A stretch of DNA of 64,000 nucleotides from Bartonella fuyuanensis (GTDB lineage Bacteria; Pseudomonadota; Alphaproteobacteria; Rhizobiales; Rhizobiaceae). Position numbers and translations under genes: made by a program. Numbering within the stretch: the stretch's first letter is position 1; each line of letters starts with the position of its first letter. This document shows, piece by piece, positions 53,598 through 60,501 of this stretch. Under the pieces are notes generated by a model. The model saw only the letters and a list, made by a program, of their open reading frames with translations. It was not told the DNA's origin and did not search any database. The stretch lies in contig NZ_JACIFE010000005.1 in NCBI RefSeq assembly GCF_014197255.1, forward strand, positions 1 through 64,000. Direction: 5' to 3'.

Positions 53598-55154
53598 TTA
53601 TTCCCACTCAATGGTACCAGGAGGCTTTGAGGTTATATCATAGACAACACGATTAATTCCTCTAACTTCATTAATAATGCGTGCTGCTGTCTTACCTAAA
53701 AACGCCATATCATGAGGATAAAAATCAGCGGTCATTCCATCTACAGATATAACAGCGCGTAGAGCACAAACAAATTCATAAGTCCGACCATCTCCCATCA
53801 CACCAACAGTTTGAACGGGAAGAAGAACAGCAAAAGCTTGCCAAATTTCATCATAAAGACCAGACTTACAGATTTCCTCAAGATAAATAGCATCTGCTTC
53901 ACGTAAAATTTCTAATTTTTCACGTGTTACAGCACCTGGACATCGAATTGCAAGACCAGGACCAGGAAAAGGATGACGGCTAATAAACTGCTCCGGCAAC
54001 CCTAATTCCCGCCCCAGTGCGCGAACCTCATCCTTAAAGAGCTCACGCAACGGTTCTACAAGTTTCATATTCATCTGTTCTGGTAATCCTCCCACATTAT
54101 GATGACTTTTAATGGTTACTGATTTACCAATAGCAGACACACTCTCAATAACATCCGGATAAAGTGTTCCTTGTGCTAAAAACTCTGCACCTCCTATTTT
54201 TTTAGTTTCTTCTTCAAAAACATCAATAAAAAGCCGCCCAATTGTTTTACGTTTTTTTTCTGGATCTGTCTCACCTACCAAAGCATTAAGAAACACACTA
54301 GCAGCATTCACGTGAATAAGTTCTATATTATAGTGATCGTGGAATAATGTAAGAACTTCCTGAACTTCATTCTTCCGCATAAATCCATGATCTACCAAAA
54401 TACATGTCAGTTGATCTCCTATAGCTTCATGAAGGAGTACCGCTACAACAGATGAGTCTACTCCACCTGAAAGACCACAAATCACACGACTTTTCCCAAC
54501 TTGCTGTCGTATTGTAGCAATCGCCTGCTCACGATAAGAAGCCATTGACCAATTTCCTTTAATAGCAGAGATCTTATGAATAAAATTTTGCAAAAGTTTT
54601 GTACCATCTGGTGTATGGATCACTTCAGGATGGAATTGGACCGCATAAAAATGTCTTTTCTCATCAGCAATAGCTGCATAGGGAGCACCTTTTGAAGCTC
54701 CTATAACACGAAAACCTTCTGGTAAAGCTGCCACACGATCACCATGGCTCATCCATACTTGATAACAAGAACCCTTTTTCCACACTCCCTCAAAAAGTGC
54801 ACTCTCTTCTTGTACTTCCAAAAAAGCGCGCCCAAATTCACGCTCATGTCCAGCTTCAACCTTTCCGCCAAGCTGAACACACATGACTTGCTCACCATAG
54901 CAAATACCAAGAATCGGAATACCTGCCTCAAAAATTTCCATTGGAACACGCGGTGAATCTTTATCCATAACAGAATAAGGACTCCCTGACAAAACGACTG
55001 CTTTAGGGGTTACATCCTTAATAGCTTTTAAAGCCAATTGAAAAGGAACAATTTCACAGTATATCCCCATTGCTCGCACCCGTCGTGCAATAAGTTGTGT
55101 AACTTGTGAACCAAAGTCAATAATAAGAACAGTTTCTGAATGTGATATGCTCAT
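53598..55154 (-). CDS. guaA: GMP synthase (glutamine-hydrolysing)
   Basis: GuaA aminates XMP to GMP. The class I amidotransferase domain covers residues 1-195 with nucleophile Cys in GICYGEQVM and His in VQFHPEV. The ATP-pyrophosphatase P-loop is [12 protein letters not shown]. The dimerisation domain ends [11 protein letters not shown]. Length from ATG 55154 is 518 aa. The guaB gene lies downstream in coordinates (57282-58781) on the same strand, so both purine steps IMP to XMP to GMP are here. Confidence 0.96.
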
Positions 55155-55281
55155 AAAAAAACCAATCAACAATTATAAAAGAGGACTAATAAGATTTATG
55201 ATTCAATCTTTCTCTTTTCACAAGCCTGTTTTCGTAAGAAAAAGATTATTCTTGTAAAATTTATGACAAAAAATGCAAAAA

Positions 55282-56574
55282 TTATGTCTCAATGTTTTTT
55301 TGCAATACAGATAAAAAGAAACCATCCGTTTGTGTTGTTGCGGGTGATAAAGTAAGTCCATAATCTGAAAAGACTGGTTGCACAGGAGAAAAACTAAAAT
55401 GCTTCTGCCAAAGGGCCTGCATATCTATTGGATAAAAATGAGAATGTTGTTGAAGGAAATGGAAAATTTGTTCCTCATTTTCATCTGCAAAAAGAGAACA
55501 AGTAATATAGATTAAACGCCCTTTTGGCTTAAGATAAGCTATAGCTTCATTCAAAATAGCCCACTGTTCTGTTTGGCGTTGTTTTACCTGTTCTAATGTT
55601 AAACGCCATTTCGCATCTGGACGACGACGCCATGTTCCTGTGCCACTACATGGTACGTCCAGTAAAACTCTATCCATCTGACCTGTTAATGGCTTTAATT
55701 CTTCTCTTTGCGCCCGTATTTGTACATTACGAACACCCGCGCGTCGGAGACGATCAAAAATAGAAGCTAAGCGCGCTTTATCAGAATCATAAGCATAAAT
55801 TTGCCCACGATTGTTCATATCGGAAGCTAAAGCTAATGTCTTTCCACCAGCACCTGCACAATAATCCAATACCTGCATGCTTTCTTGCGCTTCTACAAGA
55901 TGAGCAACAATTTGAGATCCTAAATCCTGTATTTCAAAATATCCTTTTCGAAAAGCTGGTTCAACGTGAACATTAGGATGACGGTTAAACCTTTCAATCG
56001 GTGCAATTCTTAAAGCTTGTTGAAACCATGATAGAGCTTGAGATTTAGTTTTTGCTAATTCTCTCAGCACTTTCTTTGGTGTTGCCTTTAGAGTATTGAC
56101 TCGCAAATCTAAAGAAGGACGAGTTGCTAACGCAGCAGCTTCAGTGATCCAATTATCGCCAAATAAAGGCTGTAGATGTGCCTGACACCATCGGGGAATA
56201 TCACCACGAATATAATCTGGTGCATCCACTAATTGCCTCCTTTGCCACGATTGGCGTTGTTTATCCTCTAATAATTGCGGAGCAAACCGATCTCCTTCTA
56301 ACGCACTATCTATTTGCTCTAATGTCATTTTTCCAGTATCTAATAAGGTAGCAAAAACAATATTTTGAATATCATCACTCTGCATACGCCATTGCAAAGA
56401 ATATCGTCTTCTTAAAACATCATAAACAATTGTACTAATAGCTGCGCGATCATCTGCTCCTGCAAAGCGATGTGAAAGCCCCCAGTCCTTTAAAGTTTCT
56501 CTTACTGGACGATGTCTAACTTCTATCTCTTTGAGAACATCGATTGCTGCTTGTAAACGCCCACCTAATCGCAT
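55282..56574 (-). CDS. rsmB: RsmB/NOL1/NOP2/Sun-type RNA cytosine-5 methyltransferase
   Basis: A 430-aa RNA m5C methyltransferase. SAM motif I is VLDYCAGAGGKTLALA; the catalytic cysteines are in DVPCSGTGTWRRRPD and ITCSLFADENEEQ. The N-terminal helical part replaces a full NusB domain. It lies between guaA and guaB. The 16S rRNA C967 target is by family analogy. Confidence 0.88.
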   Translation of the reverse strand: MRLGGRLQAAIDVLKEIEVRHRPVRETLKDWGLSHRFAGADDRAAISTIVYDVLRRRYSLQWRMQSDDIQNIVFATLLDTGKMTLEQIDSALEGDRFAPQLLEDKQRQSWQRRQLVDAPDYIRGDIPRWCQAHLQPLFGDNWITEAAALATRPSLDLRVNTLKATPKKVLRELAKTKSQALSWFQQALRIAPIERFNRHPNVHVEPAFRKGYFEIQDLGSQIVAHLVEAQESMQVLDYCAGAGGKTLALASDMNNRGQIYAYDSDKARLASIFDRLRRAGVRNVQIRAQREELKPLTGQMDRVLLDVPCSGTGTWRRRPDAKWRLTLEQVKQRQTEQWAILNEAIAYLKPKGRLIYITCSLFADENEEQIFHFLQQHSHFYPIDMQALWQKHFSFSPVQPVFSDYGLTLSPATTQTDGFFLSVLQKNIET

Positions 56575-56973
56575 TCATTTCTCCCATTAAATGATATCAG
56601 CTTCTTATTACAAAATGAAATTTTCTCAAAACCATCAAAAATTTAAATTCAATATTTAAATGATCTGGCTATACTTTATTTATTAAGATCGAATTTAGAG
56701 TTATTAGATTTTTCCTTTCATCTTCTATCCATCTGCTTTTTATCCTGCTAAAATACATAAAATGCCCTCACACTAAAAGATACACTGCTGGCCATAAAGA
56801 ACTTCTTTTCACTATAAATTACGAAAAAAATAAAAAACTTCTAAATAAGATTAGATAAGTTCAATTTTATGCTCAGCAAAAAATTAACTTTTTAGAAAAT
56901 ACTTGGAACCACTATTTGGTATGACCGTTTTTACTATACTGGCAACTGCCAGATAATTTAAAAGGAGAAAATA

Positions 56974-57120
56974 ATGACTTATAACAATGCAAAAACAACT
57001 TCATCTAAAAGCCGTAACAATACAATGCCCTCAGACAATGGAAAGAAATCCATTCAAAGTGATCAGACAAATACTCGCCAACGTGCGTCCAAGACAGGAC
57101 GGAAGACAACAAAAAGTTAA
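56974..57120 (+). CDS. Small basic protein of 48 aa, unknown function
   Basis: ATG to TAA with AAAGGAG seven bases before the start. The product is rich in Lys, Arg, Ser, Thr, Asn and Gln and has almost no hydrophobic residues, so it is probably disordered and could bind nucleic acid. A strong terminator follows 23 bases later. It is transcribed against guaB and rsmB. The free-standing arrangement (ribosome binding site, ORF, terminator) supports a real gene. I do not recognise a family. Confidence 0.7.
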   Translation: MTYNNAKTTSSKSRNNTMPSDNGKKSIQSDQTNTRQRASKTGRKTTKS

Positions 57121-57143
57121 TTCTAATTTTATATAGTCTTCCA

Positions 57144-57180
57144 GAAAGAATTAGAGGTTAAAACTCTAATTCTTTCTTTT
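57144..57180 (+). terminator. Intrinsic terminator after the 48-aa gene
   Basis: A 13-bp perfect stem GAAAGAATTAGAG (57144-57156) / CTCTAATTCTTTC (57164-57176) with a 7-nt loop is followed by TTTTC. The most perfect hairpin of its kind in the window. Confidence 0.85.
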
Positions 57181-57204
57181 CTAGATTATTACTCCAAATC
57201 ACAC

Positions 57205-57244
57205 AAAAAAAGCTTAGAATCTCTCCTTTGTTTGCAGGAGATTT
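57205..57244 (-). terminator. Candidate terminator after guaB
   Basis: On the minus strand AATCTCCT pairs with AGGAGAGATT (two-base bulge) around an A-rich loop, followed after six bases by TTTTTTT. It lies 38-77 bases past the guaB stop. Confidence 0.6.
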
Positions 57245-57281
57245 TACTATCTATGCGATATGACGCTAGGCTCTTATTCCT

Positions 57282-58907
<1,626 letters not shown>

Positions 58908-58929
58908 TTAAAAAGTGGTTTATAAAAAT

Positions 58930-60501
58930 TTACAATTGTGATTCAATAGGTAGCCAACTTATTATTCTTGCAAATACCCGGCGCCAAAAATTGCTTTCTG
59001 GTTCACAATCAATGCTATACTGTTTTTTATTTTCGATAAAATCCCAATAAATACGATTATTATCACCAAGACGAAGATGATAACTCATTTCTCCTGTTGT
59101 TTCTTCGGAAAACAACAAATCTAACCTCGCTGTAATAGGAGCACATTCAAAAAGAATTCCCATTTCTGTGTTTAATGCTGCCGATCTAGGATCAAAGTTT
59201 AAAGATCCAATAAAAGCTGTTTTACGATCAACTAAAAAAGCTTTGGTGTGTAAACTGGCTTTACTCGATCGAAACAATCGTAACCCATGGATGTTGCCTT
59301 CCGCTTTTAATTCATAAAGCTTAACACCACTTTTCAACAGTGCCTTACGATATGCTACATAACCACCATGCACCAATGCCACATCAGTTGCTGCTAAGGA
59401 ATTCGTGAGAATTTTAACATCAACACCCTTTGAAACCAACTTACTAAAATTCTGTGTACCAACCTTGCCAGGAACAAAATAAGGTGACGTAATCTGAACT
59501 GTTTTTTGGGCATTTCCAATAACCGTTGAGAGTGCTTTCATAAGCCAATTGCTTGCTTTTTTACGCAATACTTTTTCTGGAGGATCAGAAAGAACAACAA
59601 CTTTTTCTGCTAAAAATAACCGCTTTCCTATTTGGATAAAACAATCAAAATTAATGTGCTCTTTTACATAATCTAAATAAACTTTTGCAGCCTTAGAATC
59701 TCGAAATTTTCTTAATTTATCTTTCCAATGGCTAAGGTCACTTGCGCTTTTAGGAACAACCAAAGTATGAATTGGCAAAACAACAGCGCTATTCCAAAAA
59801 TCATCAAAGATACTTTCCACTTTTTTAACTGAGGGACCGATTAGCATCAAATCTAAATCTCTAAAATGGGATTCTTCATCAGCATCAAAATAAGAATCTG
59901 CAAGATTACGCCCTCCTACAAAAGCAATCCTGCCATCAACAATAAAAGCTTTATTATGCATTCTACGTGTTACAGTAATTGCCCGTAACATAATTTCTAA
60001 ACCACGGCGTAACCCACCTTTACGAGATCGCCCTGGATTAAACATTCTCACCTCAATATGAGGGTGTTTATCTAGTGCAATATAAGCTGGATCACGTGCC
60101 TGAGCATTAATATCATCCAAAAGAAGCCGTACCCGTACACCCCGATCAGCTGCCTCAACTATTTCACTTAATAATAAGCGCCCCGTTAAATCATCGTCCC
60201 AAATATAATACATCAAATCAAGGCTACGCCCAGCCTCTGCAGCTCCGATTGCACGAACACAAAACGCATCCAAATTACTGATAATGAGGGAAAGAGCATC
60301 TTTATCAATCCCCAATCCATTTTCTTTCTCAGCTAATTGACTGACGAGACGATCAAGCTTGGTTTCATCTTTCTTAATAGGCAACGCATACGAACATTCC
60401 CCCTTAGCACTTTTCACAAAACGCCCATATGTGTAAATCGCTAACATAGATGCAACAAAAAAAAAGAGGATAAAACCAATAACAATCTGCAAAAGAGTCA
60501 A
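58930..60501 (-). CDS. Phospholipase D family protein (cardiolipin synthase-like)
   Basis: A 523-aa protein with one N-terminal membrane segment (residues 5-25) and two HKD motifs: HNKAFIVDGRIAFVGGRN (first half) and HTKAFLVDRKTAFIGSLN (second half). Such enzymes transfer phosphatidyl groups to make cardiolipin, or cleave phospholipids. The domain order and membrane anchor fit a bacterial cardiolipin synthase C-type enzyme. It could also be a secreted-type PLD, but no cleavable signal is evident. Confidence 0.85.
   Translation of the reverse strand: MTLLQIVIGFILFFFVASMLAIYTYGRFVKSAKGECSYALPIKKDETKLDRLVSQLAEKENGLGIDKDALSLIISNLDAFCVRAIGAAEAGRSLDLMYYIWDDDLTGRLLLSEIVEAADRGVRVRLLLDDINAQARDPAYIALDKHPHIEVRMFNPGRSRKGGLRRGLEIMLRAITVTRRMHNKAFIVDGRIAFVGGRNLADSYFDADEESHFRDLDLMLIGPSVKKVESIFDDFWNSAVVLPIHTLVVPKSASDLSHWKDKLRKFRDSKAAKVYLDYVKEHINFDCFIQIGKRLFLAEKVVVLSDPPEKVLRKKASNWLMKALSTVIGNAQKTVQITSPYFVPGKVGTQNFSKLVSKGVDVKILTNSLAATDVALVHGGYVAYRKALLKSGVKLYELKAEGNIHGLRLFRSSKASLHTKAFLVDRKTAFIGSLNFDPRSAALNTEMGILFECAPITARLDLLFSEETTGEMSYHLRLGDNNRIYWDFIENKKQYSIDCEPESNFWRRVFARIISWLPIESQL

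Follow-up and report, generated by a model that had tools for sequence, protein, structure and literature searches.

The locus

The window, i.e. the whole stretch of 64,000 nucleotides of Bartonella fuyuanensis DNA that was analysed, carries a single plus-strand gene of 48 codons between rsmB and guaB, and nothing else stands between these two neighbours. Both rsmB (55282-56574; named from its PF01189 match, the RsmB models scoring under their cut-offs in the Pfam/NCBIfam naming) and guaB (57282-58859; TIGR01302 above cut-off) lie on the minus strand, so that rsmB is divergent from the small gene and guaB convergent with it. The features considered here are the following:

56886..56899, plus strand: A/T-rich stretch AACTTTTTAGAAAA, ahead of the -35 box (column conservation)
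56905..56929, plus strand: putative EcfG-type promoter GGAAC-N16-CGTT, with -35 box 56905-56909 and -10 box 56926-56929 (motif match, conservation)
56939..56952, plus strand: small hairpin CTGGC-AACT-GCCAG near the expected mRNA start (folding energy)
56962..56967, plus strand: ribosome-binding site AAGGAG, 6 nt ahead of the ATG
56974..57120, plus strand: 48-aa gene, ATG to TAA, KGG-less orthologue of a KGG protein (conservation, codon change, held-out profile)
57064..57117, plus strand: residues 31-48, where the KGG motif has been lost (alignment with G063)
57143..57182, plus strand: predicted terminator with 14-bp stem, 7-nt loop and broken T-run (folding, conservation)

An earlier note on this DNA had pointed to a 48-aa open reading frame with a good ribosome-binding site, a very polar and basic product and a terminator of its own, together forming a complete transcription unit. 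The frame is present in the window sequence as described, and AGGAG or an equivalent is also found ahead of the ATG in relatives. Likewise, the product contains seven Lys, four Arg, two Asp and no Glu, with a pI of 11.2 and a GRAVY of -1.84, and by its own promoter match and terminator the unit appears self-contained. A second open reading frame (56987-57136) overlaps the gene.

Coding status and conservation

A DNA search found the gene in 55 of the 71 Bartonella genomes, and a profile search returned an equal number at E < 1e-19, plus weak matches. Since the frame is kept on the guaB side in these 55 genomes of the genus, it is real beyond chance. A frame of 46-50 codons opening at ATG was recovered in 82 loci, which comprise 54 of the 55 matching genomes (G065 was left out of the loci compared), 27 named records that overlap with them and a second locus of the own genome; the choice of start in these loci favours the ATG behind the ribosome site. 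The 27 named relatives recovered all belong to Bartonella. Furthermore, guaB adjoins the gene in 83/83 loci and rsmB in 72/83, the remaining 11 being nine short loci (~1 kb upstream covered) and two of G063, where other genes stand upstream instead.

Pooling of the 56 distinct regions gives a pN of 0.138 and a pS of 0.335, with third positions the most variable. Values of dN/dS were reported for nine pairs: it is 0.09-0.16 in the four closer ones and 0.24, 0.51 and 0.60 in three deeper ones, and the remaining pairs, two in number, are saturated. Change among close relatives is thus mostly synonymous, which supports coding, and the situation that the earlier note had named as favouring a non-coding RNA, a terminator conserved where the frame is not, does not apply: the frame is conserved. 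The sole copy with a frame-breaking indel is that of G028 (L079), whose C-terminus is frameshifted. Judged from these codon patterns, 56974-57120 is a real protein gene.

Descent from a one-motif KGG protein

A PF10685 search of the window protein gave no match at E<=10, and only one of the 71 Bartonella genomes, G063, passes the cut-off of this family. Its protein scores 36 bits (cut-off 20.4), with the match at residues 31-50, and the corresponding protein of G162, a genome of another genus within the same family, passes with 25.1 bits. Both copies adjoin guaB, and in G162 the gene order is again rsmB, 48-aa gene, guaB. The G162 genome (L149) is strongly reduced, to 1.16 Mb, and retains the KGG gene with an EcfG-type promoter, a terminator and its rsmB/guaB neighbours.

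Our initial profile (A1) included the G063 sequence, which biased its E-values for G063 and G162; a held-out profile was therefore built without either of them. This profile of 54 KGG-less Bartonella sequences matches the G063 and G162 proteins at 1.4e-10 and 4.7e-9, respectively, the best of 2000 shuffled decoys reaching an E of 0.098. Further KGG loci of the order were matched at 8e-6 (L184) and 9e-4 (L102), each value being summed over weak domains (two and three, respectively), and in a family-wide search with A1 just weak matches (E 0.009 or worse) appeared beyond Bartonella and G162.

In the alignment, residues 31-48 of the window protein read NTRQRASKTGRKTTKS and the G063 counterpart NDRQRASEAGRKGGKNS; the G063 protein ends in NFANDRQRASEAGRKGGKNS, where the window protein has NTRQRASKTGRKTTKS. 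G063 and G162 possess one KGG motif each, the window protein none, and there are no tandem repeats. Common descent with the KGG carriers is indicated by the held-out profile, the position on the guaB side and the shared promoter. From the held-out matches, the guaB adjacency and the PF10685 passes of its relatives, the window gene is read as orthologous to a KGG stress protein with one motif, an ancestry that is well supported by the sequence comparisons; PF10685 misses it because the KGG signature has been lost.

The net charge is +9 for the window protein, +7 for G063 and +8 for G162, and glycine accounts for 2/48, 6/50 and 5/48 residues, respectively. All seven members tested fall into the disordered field of a charge-hydropathy plot. 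AlphaFold2 (23 sequences) gave a pLDDT of 65.4 and a pTM of 0.13, and DSSP run on its result returned nothing.

Promoter and transcript signals

The sequence GGAAC-N16-CGTT corresponds to the R. etli EcfG1 motif given in PMC3892343, and AAC and CGTT are named as canonical EcfG elements in a review (PMC8103513). It occurs in 56/56 distinct regions, which share kinship and are not independent, ending 44-55 nt upstream of the ATG, and in G162 and G063 both boxes are kept while the spacers have diverged. In the own genome, the motif is found 15 times vs 33 for the reversed pattern, i.e. there is no genome-wide enrichment, and in the window twice vs 0.92 expected, which is chance level. Of these 15 sites, ten are internal to long open reading frames; four of the remaining five precede an open reading frame within 170 nt, including the 48-aa gene. 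Because genome-wide enrichment failed, the case for the promoter is based on its position, on its conservation and on the outgroups. Other Rhizobiales KGG genes also lend it weight, as the strict motif stands within 300 nt upstream of 9/35 analysed, G162 included (shuffle expectation 0.075; reversed motif 0/35), and is absent there from 26/35; 37 KGG loci had been given, of which L174 and L194 were dropped since no KGG frame was found. On these comparisons, the promoter assignment is well supported. Sigma-70-like sites near the gene were rejected as candidates (three found vs 3.5 in shuffles).

Upstream of the -35 box, 12 of the 14 columns of the A/T-rich stretch have one base in 93-98 % of the 56 regions, so that its conservation nearly equals that of the promoter across the main Bartonella clade; the stretch is not visibly retained in G063. 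It may be an UP-like element or a binding site of another kind.

The small hairpin begins 9 nt past the CGTT of the -10 box and folds at -7.9 kcal/mol (z -2.95). Its arms are constant and its loop varies from 3 to 8 nt, the arms in G063 being CTGGT/ACCAG. A stem of at least 4 bp occurs at this place in 55/56 regions, and we do not press the hairpin as covariation proof because this loose rule is also satisfied by 48 % of mononucleotide shuffles. It may stabilise the 5' end of the transcript.

At the other end, positions 57143-57156 pair with 57164-57177 in 14 perfect base pairs (-18.2 kcal/mol, z -4.2), with 0/200 shuffles as stable, and an uninterrupted stem of at least 7 bp is present in 50/56 regions. 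The earlier description of a strong and perfect 13-bp terminator was right about perfection, the stem being here 14 bp, but generous with “strong”: A+T prevail in the stem, the run of T is interrupted (TTTCT), and a consensus scanner did not list the terminator.

Regulator genes

A single cluster of the own genome encodes NepR, PhyR, an HWE kinase and an EcfG-like sigma factor. It contains no exact GGAAC-N16-CGTT and two GGAAC boxes without CGTT. At the divergent nepR/phyR promoters (L202:1900-2110), GGAACTTTTT boxes face apart, with no CGTT at the usual distance. NepR is found in 69/71 Bartonella genomes, including 14 of the 16 that lack the 48-aa gene, from which it follows that the general stress response does not need this gene. 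G002, a complete small genome, has neither the gene nor a NepR match, and its general stress response may be degraded. PMC3595295 and PMC5387305 link the general stress response of Bartonella to its switch between arthropod and mammal. Among the papers listed by a literature search, with most subscription papers outside its scope, none connected a KGG protein with Bartonella or EcfG.

Loss of the motif and of the gene

When a 600-base fragment of guaB was used for a tree, with G162 as its root, the 53 KGG-less tips formed one clade (support 0.79), and the 16 gene-less genomes formed two, of 13 (0.99) and three (0.99). The clade of three groups with the KGG-less tips (0.78), and that of 13 with G063 (0.82). 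Within 1.2 kb of guaB, none of the 16 gene-less genomes has the motif or a similar small open reading frame, the same inspection recovering 3/3 positive controls. With deep supports that are modest, one loss of the KGG motif and two losses of the gene would be the simplest history. Thus read, the KGG part probably decayed once in the main Bartonella line, with the remaining chain and the stress promoter preserved.

Interpretation

We favour, at a probability of roughly 0.7, the reading of this locus as an EcfG-driven monocistronic gene for a disordered, basic, hydrophilin-like stress protein of KGG descent. According to this model, EcfG (RpoE in Bartonella) would be freed once PhyR captures the anti-sigma factor NepR, and free EcfG would transcribe the 48-aa gene from GGAAC-N16-CGTT into a short mRNA starting near the small hairpin and ending at its own terminator. 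The product, small, basic, intrinsically disordered and hydrophilin-like, would descend from a one-motif KGG protein, build up under stress and, through its charge and hydration, give proteins or nucleic acids a non-specific protection. The EcfG induction and the transcript ends are what we infer from the sequence motifs; the role of a stress-induced protectant follows from analogy with KGG proteins elsewhere, and the protective action taken alone stands at about even odds. The earlier interpretation of a protein gene in its own transcription unit, with a stress-related disordered product, agrees with the EcfG-type promoter, the KGG ancestry and the disorder indicators, but it missed both the family relation and the stress promoter.

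From composition, the earlier note had also proposed nucleic-acid binding, which the protein may have. A specific binder, e.g. a small RNA chaperone or nucleoid accessory protein acting under stress after the KGG had gone, would account for the net charge of +9, the conserved K/R positions and acidic residues limited to two Asp. We consider this unlikely, however, as the positive charge is older than the KGG loss (it is already seen in G063 and G162) and the protein has neither a known binding domain nor a predicted fold. One might instead see a decaying remnant, a gene on its way out that has lost its functional motif and is retained by chance, given the lost KGG, the 16 of 71 genomes in two clades in which the gene is undetected, the shifted C-terminus in G028 and the dN/dS of 0.51-0.60 in two deeper pairs. 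Yet frame, ribosome site and promoter are intact in the main clade, the terminator stem persists in 50/56 regions, and the four closer pairs show a low dN/dS, which makes decay quite unlikely.

A gene acting as RNA only is rejected in view of the codon-level conservation and the Rfam search, which gave no match at E<=1 in 54000-60500. A small regulatory RNA in a wider sense, whose transcript acts mainly as RNA with a secondary or dual-function frame, would suit so short and isolated a unit, with its 5' hairpin and its conserved terminator, but it is very improbable: third codon positions vary most, indels keep the frame in all copies save one, and the ancestry of the encoded protein is recognisable.

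The favoured reading, a stress protein of KGG descent, places the gene close to several known systems. KGG stress proteins (PF10685; YciG, YmdF, STM14_1829/SEN1538) are, like the window protein, small, very hydrophilic and disordered, and those of Salmonella are described in PMC7161692 as disordered proteins under RpoS control that play a part in tolerance to heat, acid or peptides; a KGG protein also appears as a biofilm factor in PMC9262955. The link to a general-stress sigma factor is RpoS there and would be the EcfG promoter here, and ancestry in common runs via G063 and G162, with an N-x-R-x-R-A-S-x-x-G-R-K stretch retained. The window protein differs in that its KGG is gone, PF10685 finds no match and its glycine is lower; moreover, YciG-type proteins have tandem repeats, whereas the window lineage had at most one ancestral motif. 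YciG is classed as a hydrophilin in PMC5437024, where high glycine belongs to the definition. With hydrophilins the window protein shares extreme hydrophilicity (by GRAVY), disorder indicators and a putative stress expression, but not the high glycine. The EcfG regulon of Alphaproteobacteria is matched in the R. etli-type motif and the regulator genes of the own genome, membership of the window gene being predicted from its sequence. In this reading, the window protein belongs to a known class of stress proteins and has lost the class signature, with its stress promoter retained.

KGG proteins are widespread general-stress proteins whose mode of action is poorly understood. If our reading is true, Bartonella would provide a natural motif-deletion experiment, in which the KGG was lost once and 54 species-level genomes kept the gene, with its stress promoter and subject to purifying selection. 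A lineage without the signature but with gene, promoter and terminator reveals the residues that selection still holds. As a tentative and rather doubtful extension, the working part of the KGG class might be the basic disordered chain and not the KGG, and the Bartonella copy may have acquired a separate function during the host or arthropod stage. The gene would also offer a candidate target of EcfG in Bartonella that is short and has clear boundaries. Elsewhere in the own genome, intergenic GGAAC-N16-CGTT motifs (L093 and L095, contigs C2 and C3) stand 85 and 93 nt before open reading frames of 91 and 108 codons, which show no Pfam match above cut-off in their first 60 residues and are likewise candidate EcfG targets.
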